From Corynebacterium sp. HMSC04H06 (GTDB lineage Bacteria; Actinomycetota; Actinomycetes; Mycobacteriales; Mycobacteriaceae): a stretch of DNA of 64,000 nucleotides. The stretch lies in assembly GCF_001815935.1 (NCBI RefSeq), contig NZ_KV823418.1, forward strand, positions 1-64,000. Direction: 5' to 3'. The position numbers were made by a program, and so were the translations under genes. Below, one piece after another: positions 10,562-34,223 of the stretch. Numbering within the stretch: the stretch's first letter is position 1; every line of letters begins with the position of its first letter. The notes beneath the pieces were generated by a model. It was not told the DNA's origin and made no database searches. It saw only the letters and a list, made by a program, of their open reading frames with translations.

Positions 10562-10650
10562 GGAGGATTCGACTAGCGGCCTATGTCACACGCCTGGAAC
10601 GCGTGCGGGGCTCACGCCCCTCGTGGGTTCAAATCCCACATCCTCCGCCA
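10562..10650 (+). tRNA. tRNA-Ser(GGA)
   Basis: The acceptor stem GGAGGAT pairs with ATCCTCC, the anticodon loop displays GGA, and a long variable arm typical of serine tRNAs is present. The T loop is GGTTCAAATCC. The discriminator is G and CCA is encoded. A terminator follows at once. Confidence 0.95.
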
Positions 10651-28124: not shown

Positions 28125-28200
28125 TGGTGCGCCCGGAGGGATTCGAACCCCCAACCTTCTGATCCGTAGTCAGATGCTCTATCCGTTGAGCCACGGGCGC
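28125..28200 (-). tRNA. tRNA-Arg(ACG)
   Basis: The acceptor GCGCCCG pairs with CGGGCGC. The anticodon ACG lies in CTACGGA, and the T loop is GGTTCGAATCC. The discriminator is A with encoded CCA. A34 should be converted to inosine by TadA. The 3' end borders the IS element. Confidence 0.95.
28127..28139 (+). repeat. 13-bp direct repeat, copy within tRNA-Arg
   Basis: GTGCGCCCGGAGG covers part of the acceptor and T stem at the 3' end of tRNA-Arg(ACG), and is identical to 26699-26711. Confidence 0.6.
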
Positions 28201-30144: not shown

Positions 30145-31509
30145 CTAAATACCCAGAACAGCCTTGGCGATGAAGAAGTAGATGATGAGGCCGGTGGCGT
30201 CGCAGAAGGTGGAAATGAACGGGTTGGAAAAGACCGCCGGGTCCGCGCCCACGGCCTTGGCCAGGATCGGCATCATCCCACCCACCGTGGCGGACATGGA
30301 ACAGACCAAGAACAGCGTGATGCCGATGACCAGGCCGATGTCGAAGCCGTAGGCCAGCGTAGCCAGGCCGACGCCGAGCAGGCCGAGCACCGCGCCGAGC
30401 AGCATCCCCACGCGCAGCTCCCGCCACATCACCGCCAGGATGTCCTTTTTTCGCACGTCGCCTAGCGCCAGCGCGCGAGTGACGGTGGTGGCGGCCTGGT
30501 TTCCGGTATTGCCGCCGGTACCGGTCAGCAGCGGGATAAACAGACTGAGCACCACGGCGGCCGCCAGGGTTTCCTCGAAGGCGTCGAGCACCTGGACGGT
30601 CAACAGAGCGGAGACCGCTAGCACCAACAGCCAGACAATGCGCGAGCGCACCAGCTTCAGCAGCGGGGTGGACATATACGGCTGCTGCAGGGCCTCAGTA
30701 CCACCGGCGCGGGCGGAATCCTCGGAGTCCTCTTCTTCCACGATGTCCGTGGCATCATCCCATGTCAGCAGGCCGACCAGGCGCTTTGATTCGTCGACGA
30801 TCGGCATGGCCAGCAAGTCCAGGGGCAAAAACCAACGGGCGGTTTCCTCCGCGTCGTCGTAGGCGTAGGCGAAGACTGGCTCGCGCATCAGGTCCTCGAC
30901 CATGCGGTTGCCGCGGGCCATGAAGAGCTCGCGGAAGCTGACCACGCCGACTAGGCGGCGGTCCTTGCGGGTGACCGGCAGGGTGTAGATAGTCTCGACG
31001 CCATCGGCAGTAGCGCGCAGCTTGGCCAACGCCTCATCCACGGTCATCTCCCGGTAGATCTCCGGGACCTCCGGGGACATGCGGCGGCCGACCGAACCCT
31101 TCGGGTAGCCCAGCACGACACCGGTGACATCCCGCTCGGTCTTGTCCAGCGAGCGCAGCAGGCGATCGGCGATCTCGGCGGGCAGCTCGTCCAGCAGGGA
31201 GACTCGGTCGTCTGGGTCGAGCTCGTCGAAGAAGGCGTAGACGTCGGCGTTGCCCAGCTCGTCGATGATATCGGCCTGGTGCGCTGAGTCCAGCGCGTCG
31301 AAGACCTCGATGGACTTGTCCCGCGGCAACAGGCGCAGCACCACGGCCGCACGGACGTTGTTCTGGCGCTCGACCAGCGCCACGATGTCCTGGATGGGAG
31401 GCGTGTCCAGGAGCCTTTGCATGTCCGGCGCCGCTTTCGGATCGATTTCCCCTTCGGTCCGCAGCAAATCCTCTAGCCGATCGATGGCCTCGTCTACCGA
31501 ATTGCTCAT
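30145..31509 (-). CDS. mgtE: Magnesium transporter MgtE
   Basis: A 454-residue MgtE. It has an N-terminal superhelical MgtE_N domain (about residues 25-130), two CBS domains (about 130-255), and five C-terminal helices with the pore signature TGTGGNTGNQAATTVTRALA. The cytoplasmic domains gate the channel by Mg2+ level. ATG at 31509 is preferred because GGGAGGTGG lies just upstream; a longer frame has no support. It diverges from the Nudix-LOG gene. Confidence 0.92.
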   Translation of the reverse strand: MSNSVDEAIDRLEDLLRTEGEIDPKAAPDMQRLLDTPPIQDIVALVERQNNVRAAVVLRLLPRDKSIEVFDALDSAHQADIIDELGNADVYAFFDELDPDDRVSLLDELPAEIADRLLRSLDKTERDVTGVVLGYPKGSVGRRMSPEVPEIYREMTVDEALAKLRATADGVETIYTLPVTRKDRRLVGVVSFRELFMARGNRMVEDLMREPVFAYAYDDAEETARWFLPLDLLAMPIVDESKRLVGLLTWDDATDIVEEEDSEDSARAGGTEALQQPYMSTPLLKLVRSRIVWLLVLAVSALLTVQVLDAFEETLAAAVVLSLFIPLLTGTGGNTGNQAATTVTRALALGDVRKKDILAVMWRELRVGMLLGAVLGLLGVGLATLAYGFDIGLVIGITLFLVCSMSATVGGMMPILAKAVGADPAVFSNPFISTFCDATGLIIYFFIAKAVLGI

Positions 31510-31685
31510 GTCCGCCACCTCCCTTGATATCCACACTGATTGACGTTGGTTCGGTGCCGGGGTTCCCGGCGTGCCTTGCTAAGAATAAACCCAAAGTGCG
31601 GAGTTTGGGCAACGGACGCGACTGCCAGTCTTTTGCGCCTTTCAATGCACCGCGTCAACCGGCCTAACCACCGGCGGGCGCGGTG

Positions 31686-31698: not shown

Positions 31699-32661
31699 AT
31701 GCCCACTCCGACCATTAACGTCAGCGCCGTCATTTTCCGCAACCGCACCGGGCAGGTGCTCACCGTCCGCAAGGCTGGCACCGAGCTCTTCCAGTTCCCC
31801 GGAGGGAAGCCGGAGCCGGGCGAAAACGCCCTTAAGGCCGCGGTGCGCGAGGTGGCCGAGGAGCTGGGTGTGGAACTTGCCGGCGCGGCGTTGAAGGAGC
31901 TCGGCACGTTTGACGCCCCGGCGGCCAACGAGGCCGGGCACGCCGTGTCTGCCACGGTCTTTAGCTACCCCTACGAGGTCTCCGCCCGGGCCAGCCACGA
32001 GATCGCCGAGCTGGCCTGGGTCAACCCGCACGCGCCGGAAAAGCCGCTCGCCCCGCTGCTGGCCGAGGAGGTTTTCCCGGCACTGGCGGCGAGAACCGCC
32101 CCGCGCGCACTGGCGGTGTACACGGGGGCGAGCACCGGCACGGACCCGCACAACCTGGAGCTGGCGCGGGAGCTGGGTACCGCGCTGGGCACGCACGGGG
32201 TGCGCCTTATCTACGGCGGCGGCAAGGTCGGGCTGATGGGCGCGGTGGCGGACGCCGCCCACGCCGCCGGCGCGCCCATCACCGGGGTCATCCCCCAGCA
32301 CCTGGTGGACGGCGAGATCGCCCACCCGGGGCTTGACCGGCTGGAAGTGGTAGAGACCATGCACGAGCGCAAGCAGCGCATGAGCGAGCTGGCCGAGGCC
32401 TGCGTGGCGCTGCCGGGCGGCGCCGGGACCTTGGACGAGTTCTTCGACGTCTGGACCCGCCAGCAGCTGGGCCTGCACGCCACGCCCCTGGCCCTGTTCG
32501 GCGCGGCCTTCTGGGCCCCACTGGTGGACCTGCTGGACCACCTGGTGGAGCAAGGCCTGGTGCGCGCCACCGACCGGGACAGCCTCATCGTGGCGGACAC
32601 AGCCGAGGAGCTCTTCGTAAAGCTGGACCGCTGGGTCGCGCCCCGGCCCAAGTGGTCCTAG
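31699..32661 (+). CDS. Nudix hydrolase - LOG phosphoribohydrolase fusion
   Basis: A 320-residue two-domain protein. Residues 1-130 are a Nudix hydrolase with a complete Nudix box (GGKPEPGENALKAAVREVAE from Gly35, then ELG). Residues 135-320 are a LOG-type (lysine-decarboxylase-like) domain with YTGASTGT, YGGGKVGLMGAVADAA and the signature PGGAGTLDE (residues 239-247). LOG enzymes cleave N6-modified AMP to free cytokinin-type bases; some members act on other nucleotide 5'-monophosphates. The fusion suggests two steps on one nucleotide. Leaderless start; the end overlaps the MFS gene by 4 nt. Confidence 0.88.
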   Translation: MPTPTINVSAVIFRNRTGQVLTVRKAGTELFQFPGGKPEPGENALKAAVREVAEELGVELAGAALKELGTFDAPAANEAGHAVSATVFSYPYEVSARASHEIAELAWVNPHAPEKPLAPLLAEEVFPALAARTAPRALAVYTGASTGTDPHNLELARELGTALGTHGVRLIYGGGKVGLMGAVADAAHAAGAPITGVIPQHLVDGEIAHPGLDRLEVVETMHERKQRMSELAEACVALPGGAGTLDEFFDVWTRQQLGLHATPLALFGAAFWAPLVDLLDHLVEQGLVRATDRDSLIVADTAEELFVKLDRWVAPRPKWS

Positions 32662-34160
32662 CGCCGGCGCCCCACCCGGTCGGCCACGCCGAAGCCCAGG
32701 GCCGCCAGGCAGACCGCGGTAATCATGGCGAAGCCCATGATGATGGCCCCGGGCCAATCGGCGTCGGTGTTGCCCAGGGTGGCAAAGACGATGGCGGTGG
32801 TCACCGCCAGCCCGACCGCGGTGCCGATCCGCTGCCCGGTCTGCATGACCGCGCCGGAGGAGCCGGCGTAGTTGGCGGGCACCTCGGCCAGCGTCAGCGT
32901 CTGGTTCGGGGAGACCACCGCGCCCTGGCCGGCGCCGACGAAGCACAGGGTGAGCACCAGCCACCACTCGCTGACGGACCAATGCGTGGTCCCCCAAATC
33001 ACCGCGATGGTCGTCACCAGACCGAAAAGCGTGGTCAGCATGCCGATAATCACCACGCGGCGCCCGTAGACCGAGACGCTCTTGCCGGCCAGGGTGGCGG
33101 TCACGGAGTTCAGCAGCGCCGAGGGCAGGCCCACACAGCCGGCCACCAGCGCGGAGTAGCCCAGCCCGTTCTGGAAATACAGCGCGACCAGCACCCAGAT
33201 GCTGGTAATGCCCATGAACCACAGCGTGGCGATGATGGTGCCGTTGCGGAAGGTAAAGGTCTGGAAGATTCCCAGGTCCACCATCGGCTCGTGGCCGGTG
33301 GACTTATGGTGGCGCTCCCAGGCCACCCAGATGGCCACGCAGACCGCCCCGGCCGGTAGGAGGGCCCAGACCCACCGCGAGCCGGAGGATTCCACGAACG
33401 GGAAGAGCACGCACAGCACCGCCAGCCCCAGCAACAGCGCACCGACCGGGTCCAGGGACTTAAACGCCTGCCAGGCCCCAACCTTCTCCCCGGCGCTGTC
33501 GCGCACCCTGGAAAACAGCGGCCGCGGGAACCACATGAGCCCTAGGACGATGGCCAGAAGCCCGATGGGGAAATTGACCAGCATGGTCAGGCGCCAACCC
33601 AGGTCCGCGCCGCCGACACGGATGAGGAAGCCGCCCAGCACCGGCCCGATGGCCACCGCCACGCCCACGGTGGAGCCGAAATAGCCGAAGGCTCGCCCAC
33701 GTTCCGCCCCGCGGAAGTACTGCTGGATCATGCCCACGCCCTGCGGGTTGAGCAGGCCCGCGCCAATGCCCTGGATGAAGCGGGACAGGTTCAGCGACTC
33801 GGCGTTCGGCGCGAAACCCGCGGAGGCACTAGCCAGGGTATAGATAGCGATACCGACGAGGAAGATGCCGCCGCGGCCCACCAAGTCCCCGGCGCGCCCG
33901 GCGGCCACCAGCACCACGCCGAAGGTGAGCGCGTAACCGGACAGCACCCACTGCACGTCGGAGTCGCTGGCGTCCAGGCCGGCCTGGATGGACGGCAGGG
34001 CCACGTTGACAATGGACACGCTAATCAGCGACATGAAGATCGCGACGAGCAGGACGATGAGTACGCGCCACCGGGCGGGATCCTGCCCGGCCGGGTGCTC
34101 CGAGGCATTCGCCTCCGATACTGTGGATGCGTTTTTGTCTGGCCGCCCGGATTTTGTCAT
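32658..34160 (-). CDS. MFS drug exporter, DHA2 (EmrB/QacA) type
   Basis: A 500-residue transporter with about 14 helices. DHA2 signs are the N-terminal VSIVNVALPSIQAGLDAS, GYALTFGVVLVAAGRAGDLVGR (motif A), and GIGAGLLNPQGVGMIQQYFRG. It probably exports hydrophobic cations or drugs by proton antiport; the substrate is unknown. ATG at 34160 is chosen because TATAAG lies 7 nt upstream and no ribosome site supports the longer frame. It converges on the Nudix-LOG gene. Confidence 0.87.
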   Translation of the reverse strand: MTKSGRPDKNASTVSEANASEHPAGQDPARWRVLIVLLVAIFMSLISVSIVNVALPSIQAGLDASDSDVQWVLSGYALTFGVVLVAAGRAGDLVGRGGIFLVGIAIYTLASASAGFAPNAESLNLSRFIQGIGAGLLNPQGVGMIQQYFRGAERGRAFGYFGSTVGVAVAIGPVLGGFLIRVGGADLGWRLTMLVNFPIGLLAIVLGLMWFPRPLFSRVRDSAGEKVGAWQAFKSLDPVGALLLGLAVLCVLFPFVESSGSRWVWALLPAGAVCVAIWVAWERHHKSTGHEPMVDLGIFQTFTFRNGTIIATLWFMGITSIWVLVALYFQNGLGYSALVAGCVGLPSALLNSVTATLAGKSVSVYGRRVVIIGMLTTLFGLVTTIAVIWGTTHWSVSEWWLVLTLCFVGAGQGAVVSPNQTLTLAEVPANYAGSSGAVMQTGQRIGTAVGLAVTTAIVFATLGNTDADWPGAIIMGFAMITAVCLAALGFGVADRVGRRR

Positions 34161-34223
34161 TACACTACTTATACTCTGCTCACGCAGATTCGCAATCCGC
34201 CGTGACAAGGCCTGCACAAAGCC

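Follow-up and report, generated by a model that had tools for sequence, protein, structure and literature searches.

What does a protein do that carries a Nudix hydrolase and a LOG phosphoribohydrolase in one chain, and is the chain truly one? The question is raised by a gene at 31,699-32,661 of the window, the whole stretch of 64,000 nucleotides of Corynebacterium sp. HMSC04H06 (contig NZ_KV823418.1) that was analysed. The gene is a frame of 320 codons running from the ATG at 31699 to the TAG at 32661, with a GC3 of 0.92 and zero internal stops. The Pfam NUDIX profile matches residues 5-118 (E 1.5e-17, 64 bits, cut-off 21), and Lysine_decarbox, which is the Pfam model for the LOG family, matches residues 180-308 (E 7e-39, 134 bits, cut-off 27), while TIGR00730 extends over residues 138-308 with 170.3 bits against a cut-off of 96.35. 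Judged from the profile ends, the linker from Nudix to LOG is only about 3 residues long. The structure of the fusion protein was predicted with confidence, with a mean pLDDT of 90.1 and a pTM of 0.69. An earlier note, made from the letters, had placed both domains in one chain, and the frame, the two kinds of profile and the motifs agree with it; the PGGxGT motif sits at residues 239-244 where the note had put it, as PGGAGT, and the Nudix box starts at Gly36 and not at Gly35, one residue away from the position given. The features of the locus are collected in Table 1.

Table 1. Features of the fusion gene and of the genes on either side of it, in window coordinates.
Feature	Position	Strand	Basis or remark
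Nudix-LOG fusion gene	31699..32661	+	320 aa, including the stop codon
Nudix hydrolase domain, residues 5-118	31711..32052	+	Pfam NUDIX; structure match to MutT-type Nudix
Nudix box GKPEPGENALKAAVREVAEELGV, residues 36-58	31804..31872	+	Pattern; catalytic positions invariant in an alignment of 28 fusions
Type-I LOG domain, residues 138-308	32110..32622	+	TIGR00730; top structural match CgLOG 5its
LOG active-site Arg224-Lys225 (= CgLOG Arg99-Lys100)	32368..32373	+	Alignment; roles as given in PMC4979012
LOG motif PGGAGTLDE, residues 239-247, catalytic Glu247 (= CgLOG Glu122)	32413..32439	+	Pattern, alignment
Arg254, replacing CgLOG Trp129 of the proposed prenyl pocket	32458..32460	+	Sequence, alignment
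MgtE-type transporter, context only	30145..31536	-	Pfam
MFS transporter, convergent, overlapping the fusion gene end by 4 bases, context only	32658..34217	-	Pfam

A domain-architecture search for such fusions, which the earlier note had proposed, found a Nudix-LOG fusion in 62 of the 242 Corynebacterium genomes searched. This number is made up of 61 rows that run across both domains, that of the window included, and of one genome (G049) in which the genus search met the C-terminal part alone and the domain search placed both domains in one frame; another genome (G176), where the gene is cut by a contig end, was left out of the count. The 60 rows besides the window match over both domains with 41-95% identity and no stop inside. 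Since 61 further Corynebacterium genomes have a relative without a stop in the match, a chance or assembly join is ruled out, and 31699-32661 is a true single-chain fusion of a MutT/NudG-like Nudix hydrolase and a type-I LOG, with full motifs in both. Two separate proteins, which the note had named as evidence against its reading, were found only in other lineages and not at the window gene.

A TIGR00730 search of the 62 fusion genomes gave exactly two matches per genome, one being the fusion and the other a further LOG. None of the 62 has a type-I LOG besides the fusion, which therefore takes the place of the standalone type-I LOG there. The second LOG of the window genome, which has two LOGs in all, is type-II-like and is flanked by genes that we take to be dapE-like and folP-like. 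Among 44 hand-picked genomes without the fusion, 28 show one LOG match of each type, I and II (one of them with an extra weak match), and 16 have a single match, which from its frame length and score is probably of type II. In eight pairs of fusions dN/dS was 0.09-0.30 when the gene was taken whole and did not exceed 0.42 in a domain taken singly, the values of the closest pairs resting on few changes, and by this measure the Nudix-LOG fusion is kept by selection.

The Nudix half has the box GX5EX7REVAEELGV at residues 36-58, which satisfies the superfamily pattern GX5EX7REUXEEXGU, and its residues G36, E42, R50, E51, E54 and E55 are invariant in 28 aligned fusions. The predicted model has a Nudix fold (3hhj, Z 17.5, rmsd 2.2, 125 aligned; 3r03, Z 17.3), and a profile search of the PDB placed a CTP pyrophosphohydrolase first (8.3e-13), followed by MutT-type proteins. 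The NCBIfam MutT equivalog (36.5 bits, cut-off 97.9) and the NudG-type equivalog PRK10546 (33.9 bits, cut-off 156) were both missed, so the Nudix substrate is not fixed by homology. Among 61 distinct fusions (57 Nudix-LOG and 4 in the LOG-Nudix order described below) the box is contiguous in 53 and carries an insertion in five. In three of the 57 Nudix-LOG fusions (G030, G111 and G017; loci L130, L152 and L146) the box is ruined and the LOG is intact. The ruined boxes and the insertions would mean that Nudix catalysis is dispensable in some lineages. Of all the results these speak most clearly against a simple catalytic reading: as far as motifs can tell, the LOG is never lost in this set and the Nudix chemistry sometimes is. 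The box loss in these three could mark a switch from enzyme to sensor or scaffold.

In the LOG half, all 28 aligned fusions share R224, K225, PGGxGT and E247, and the LOG motif is present in 61 of the 61 distinct fusions of both orders. The nearest structure to the predicted model is C. glutamicum LOG 5its (Z 29.5, rmsd 1.4, 182 aligned), which together with 5zbj ranks first. In the LOG tree the window LOG groups with the type-I LOGs Cg and Pa and lies apart from the type-II-like LOG of the same genome; judging from the tree and from the ranking of the model, the window LOG is of type I. The equivalog for cytokinin riboside-monophosphate phosphoribohydrolases, NF058542, was missed (139.4 bits, cut-off 300).

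For CgLOG, Arg99 and Glu122 are described as catalytic, and Met96, His97, Lys100, Glu125 and Trp129 have been proposed to form a pocket for the prenyl group (PMC4979012). The window has M221, H222, K225, D250 and R254 at the pocket positions; that is, Met and His are kept and Glu and Trp are changed. Conservation was counted on 117 distinct LOG domains, reduced from 146, of which 58 are fusion rows; without the one reversed fusion (G532) these are 57 (55 from Corynebacterium and 2 from Cutibacterium), and seven of the 62 Corynebacterium fusions (G006, G071, G083, G095, G194, G228 and G235) are left out. The catalytic Arg and Glu are kept in all 58 rows. The Trp129 position is kept in 7 of the 57 Nudix-LOG fusions and lost in 50, and the His97 position is kept in 13 and lost in 44. 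In the class-level LOGs His97 and Trp129 are each kept in 28 of 29, and in the standalone Corynebacterium LOGs each is kept in 2 of 23 rows and missing in 21. Since these standalone LOGs lack the His and Trp too, the pocket change belongs to the genus and not to the fusion as such. The Trp is retained in the Cutibacterium fusion and in the paired LOGs of Klebsiella and Sphingobium. MmLOG likewise differs at the prenyl-pocket positions (PMC4979012); thus specificity is not readable with certainty from the pocket, and loss of a residue is no proof. Near window residues 196-206, beside the active site, the LOG halves of the fusions come in two kinds, GVIPQHLVDGEIAH (that of the window) and one like GVLTTHLANYELKY, hinting at two possible substrate groups.

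The linkage reaches beyond the genus. Five Cutibacterium plasmid records (H1-H5) carry a Nudix-LOG fusion with 56-57% identity. Among the matches listed for 394 genomes of the class, only that of the window spans both domains in the Nudix-LOG order; a LOG match of that search (G532) turned out to be a fusion in the order LOG then Nudix. As the 394-genome list presented this genome by its LOG half only, reversed fusions elsewhere may have been missed. A single LOG-Nudix frame was found in 4 of the 150 genomes of f19, another family of actinobacteria (G532, G647, G637 and G681; loci L190-L194); in a fifth genome of the family (G669) the two halves lie in different frames, and it was not counted as a fusion. 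As separate adjacent genes, LOG then Nudix occur with an 8-base overlap on a Klebsiella plasmid (L081, NZ_LR890236.1) and with a 4-base overlap on an Acinetobacter johnsonii plasmid (L211, NZ_CP045104.1), and Nudix then LOG on a Sphingobium plasmid. In 5 of 28 non-fused class-level loci, which were the best-scoring ones and not a random draw, a strong Nudix gene (E 9e-34 or better) lies directly beside the LOG gene on the same strand, a count made without a shuffled control; the other 23 have no strong Nudix gene nearby. Among the rows listed for family f29 (81 genomes), the pair is adjacent in at least three (G267, G356 and G487) and apart in others. When the fusion was compared with 50,697 phage records by tblastn, 24 records matched and none covered 80% of it; scanning viral contigs with the Klebsiella proteins gave no relative of the Nudix and one locus for the LOG.

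In the LOG tree most fusions fall in one clade that also holds eight standalone LOGs, and two smaller fusion groups lie outside it. The eight nested LOGs look as if the Nudix domain had been dropped; no Nudix gene was found within about 3-6 kb of them, in stretches of 9.5-12 kb around the LOG, and in five of the eight genomes a Nudix relative of at least 55% identity is present elsewhere. The fusion label has to change four times in the LOG tree (two of these forced by starred branches) and eight times in the Nudix tree (three forced), both trees having long branches and few columns and the Nudix tree being poorly resolved. A single origin of the fusion is one possible reading; the trees fit a loss of Nudix from the nested standalone LOGs as well as a fusion made separately in the 27-row clade. 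In the LOG tree and the Nudix tree alike the reversed fusions have other places, so that at least two independent Nudix/LOG joins are likely.

We propose that the protein is a bifunctional nucleotide-dismantling enzyme, Nudix acting before LOG, probably on modified or damaged nucleotides, a proposal in which we place slightly more belief than doubt. In the model, the N-terminal MutT/NudG-like domain would take pyrophosphate off a (d)NTP, or phosphate off an NDP, and leave the monophosphate, and the C-terminal type-I LOG domain would cut the N-glycosidic bond of this monophosphate, releasing the free base and (deoxy)ribose 5-phosphate. Joining both domains would render the removal one-way, because the monophosphate would be destroyed before a kinase could rephosphorylate it. 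Rather than cytokinin nucleotides, the likely substrates would be purine or cytosine nucleotides that are modified or damaged. The two-step idea of the earlier note gains indirect support from the complete active sites, and the occurrence of the fusion in both orders and of the genes side by side elsewhere supports a sequential path in which a (d)NTP becomes an NMP and the NMP is split into base and sugar phosphate; from these features we infer that both domains are active and act in sequence on this substrate class. Against the proposal stand the damaged Nudix boxes, the standalone LOGs nested in the fusion clade and the 23 of 28 class-level loci that have no strong Nudix gene nearby. The Bordetella LOG cleaves AMP, GMP and CMP and yields 6-O-methylguanine (PMC6864091), hence LOGs need not be cytokinin enzymes.

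The earlier note had also considered release of a cytokinin-like base. In such a path the Nudix domain would convert isopentenyladenosine di- or triphosphate to the monophosphate, from which LOG would free the cytokinin. LOG is the cytokinin phosphoribohydrolase family, and exactly this role has been suggested for its Nudix partners in a review (PMC7913349); the window LOG keeps M221 and H222 of the pocket, and the Trp persists in the Cutibacterium fusion and the Klebsiella and Sphingobium partners. However, the idea is weakened by the replacement of CgLOG Trp129 and Glu125 and by the frequent loss of the Trp and His positions among the fusions, by the score of less than half the NF058542 cut-off, and by the nature of the only IPT-like gene of the window genome, which is of the tRNA type (277 bits for the tRNA IPP transferase family, 27 for IPT). 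The product of a tRNA-type IPT is freed as the monophosphate, for which a Nudix step is not needed. We regard cytokinin activation as distinctly unlikely; the nucleotide-cleaning half of the earlier idea is the more likely one, and disposal of modified nucleotides is the reading that we favour.

The main alternative, considering the ruined boxes and the parallel with TRPM2, is that the Nudix domain would be mainly a nucleotide sensor regulating LOG instead of an enzyme feeding it. The three fusions that keep an intact LOG behind a broken box speak for it, as does TRPM2, where SLOG and Nudix are joined and the human Nudix domain, although catalytically dead, still has a part in gating by ADP-ribose (PMC13143021); the related nucleosidase PpnN, moreover, appears in the structure-match list with (p)ppGpp bound. 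A pure sensor, however, would not need the contiguous box of most fusions nor the catalytic residues invariant in the 28 aligned, and separate Nudix genes beside LOG genes suit a diffusible product better than allostery, so that we hold this role to be unlikely. Both domains might also be active on unrelated nucleotides, the join serving co-expression only. Nudix and LOG domains are both common (the window genome, G000, has nine Nudix domains and two LOGs), and the uncoupled Nudix relatives in five of the eight genomes of the standalone-LOG clade would fit such independence. Repeated linkage in both orders and with different Nudix branches argues against it, and we judge it quite unlikely.

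As a type, the Nudix-LOG fusion is already in print: LOGs have been noted to occur in operons or fusions with Nudix hydrolases (PMC7913349, citing Samanovic et al. 2015). The partnership is the same, and there hydrolysis of cytokinin di- or triphosphates before LOG was proposed; the passage concerned in PMC7913349 gives no organisms, orders or residues. An assay of a Nudix-LOG fusion was not found in the titles and abstracts searched, a search outside which most subscription papers lie. The present analysis adds the replacement of the type-I LOG across the genus, the fusion in reverse order, the altered pocket and the decay of some Nudix boxes. The C. glutamicum LOG Cg2612 (5its, 5zbl; type I) has the catalytic Arg and Glu and PGGxGTxxE in common with the window LOG and differs from it in being without Nudix and in having His97, Glu125 and Trp129 at positions that are His, Asp and Arg in the window. 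The best matches of the Nudix half, E. coli CTP pyrophosphohydrolase (2rrk, NudG) and MutT-type proteins, share its box but are standalone, and the window protein stays below their equivalog cut-offs. PRK08999 (NF006530) combines, like the window protein, an N-terminal MutT-like Nudix with a second catalytic domain; its match at residues 4-163 reaches 40.7 bits, far under the cut-off of 245, and its partner domain is presumably thiamine-phosphate-synthase-like, not LOG. In the IPT-LOG fusions of Rhodococcus and fungi LOG is also C-terminal to its substrate-making enzyme (PMC7913349, PMC8234997), although there the partner is a prenyltransferase and in the window a Nudix hydrolase. Bordetella pertussis BP1253, likewise a bacterial LOG, accepts several NMPs and gives a modified guanine as product (PMC6864091); unlike the window fusion, it groups with type-II LOGs and is without a Nudix domain.

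The gene neighbourhood gave no clue to the substrate in the 22 stretches compared (the window, L114-L133 and L212). The window and one other genome (G032) have common neighbours and seven stretches of one clade have another setting; the remaining stretches differ, so the setting is not conserved genus-wide and was set aside as an operon clue. The crude gene picker used for this comparison missed the fusion in one stretch (L115), and another (L129) has a Nudix gene only. Much of the reverse strand across the locus is also open, which was discounted as an artefact of GC-rich codons. A near-identical standalone Nudix gene of the fusion-Nudix subfamily is present in contigs labelled as several Corynebacterium species (L041-L045, L060), and C. 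diphtheriae plasmid NC_005001.1 has a standalone Nudix gene 99% alike (over 93%) beside an Nramp-type transporter; judging from this distribution, the standalone gene looks mobile. In a close relative (G185; L053, JAQYQB010000012.1) another, related Nudix gene lies at a distance of about 6 kb from the fusion; a tblastn search of the 64-kb window gave no second copy. The window also holds four tRNA-Ser genes, at 10562, 22579, 34278 and 40070 with anticodons gga, cga, gct and tga, and a tRNA-Arg gene at 28125.

Going further, the fusion could be a self-contained, one-way sanitiser of the nucleotide pool, a single chain taking modified non-cytokinin (d)NTPs down to base and sugar phosphate, and in Corynebacterium this could be what type-I LOG is really for; we put this forward tentatively, as a possibility more doubtful than the general proposal. 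If it holds, no monophosphate that could be rephosphorylated would be left, the presence of LOG in bacteria that meet no plants would be accounted for, and under selection for coupling the two domains would have come together at least two times, in both orders. LOGs have been tested on AMP, GMP and CMP, and the products described are cytokinins or 6-O-methylguanine (PMC4979012, PMC6864091). The fused Nudix partner narrows the question of the role of LOG in plant-free bacteria, as its triphosphate substrate should reveal the natural monophosphate of LOG. If the fusion cleans damaged nucleotides, it would represent a more final form of MutT-like sanitation.
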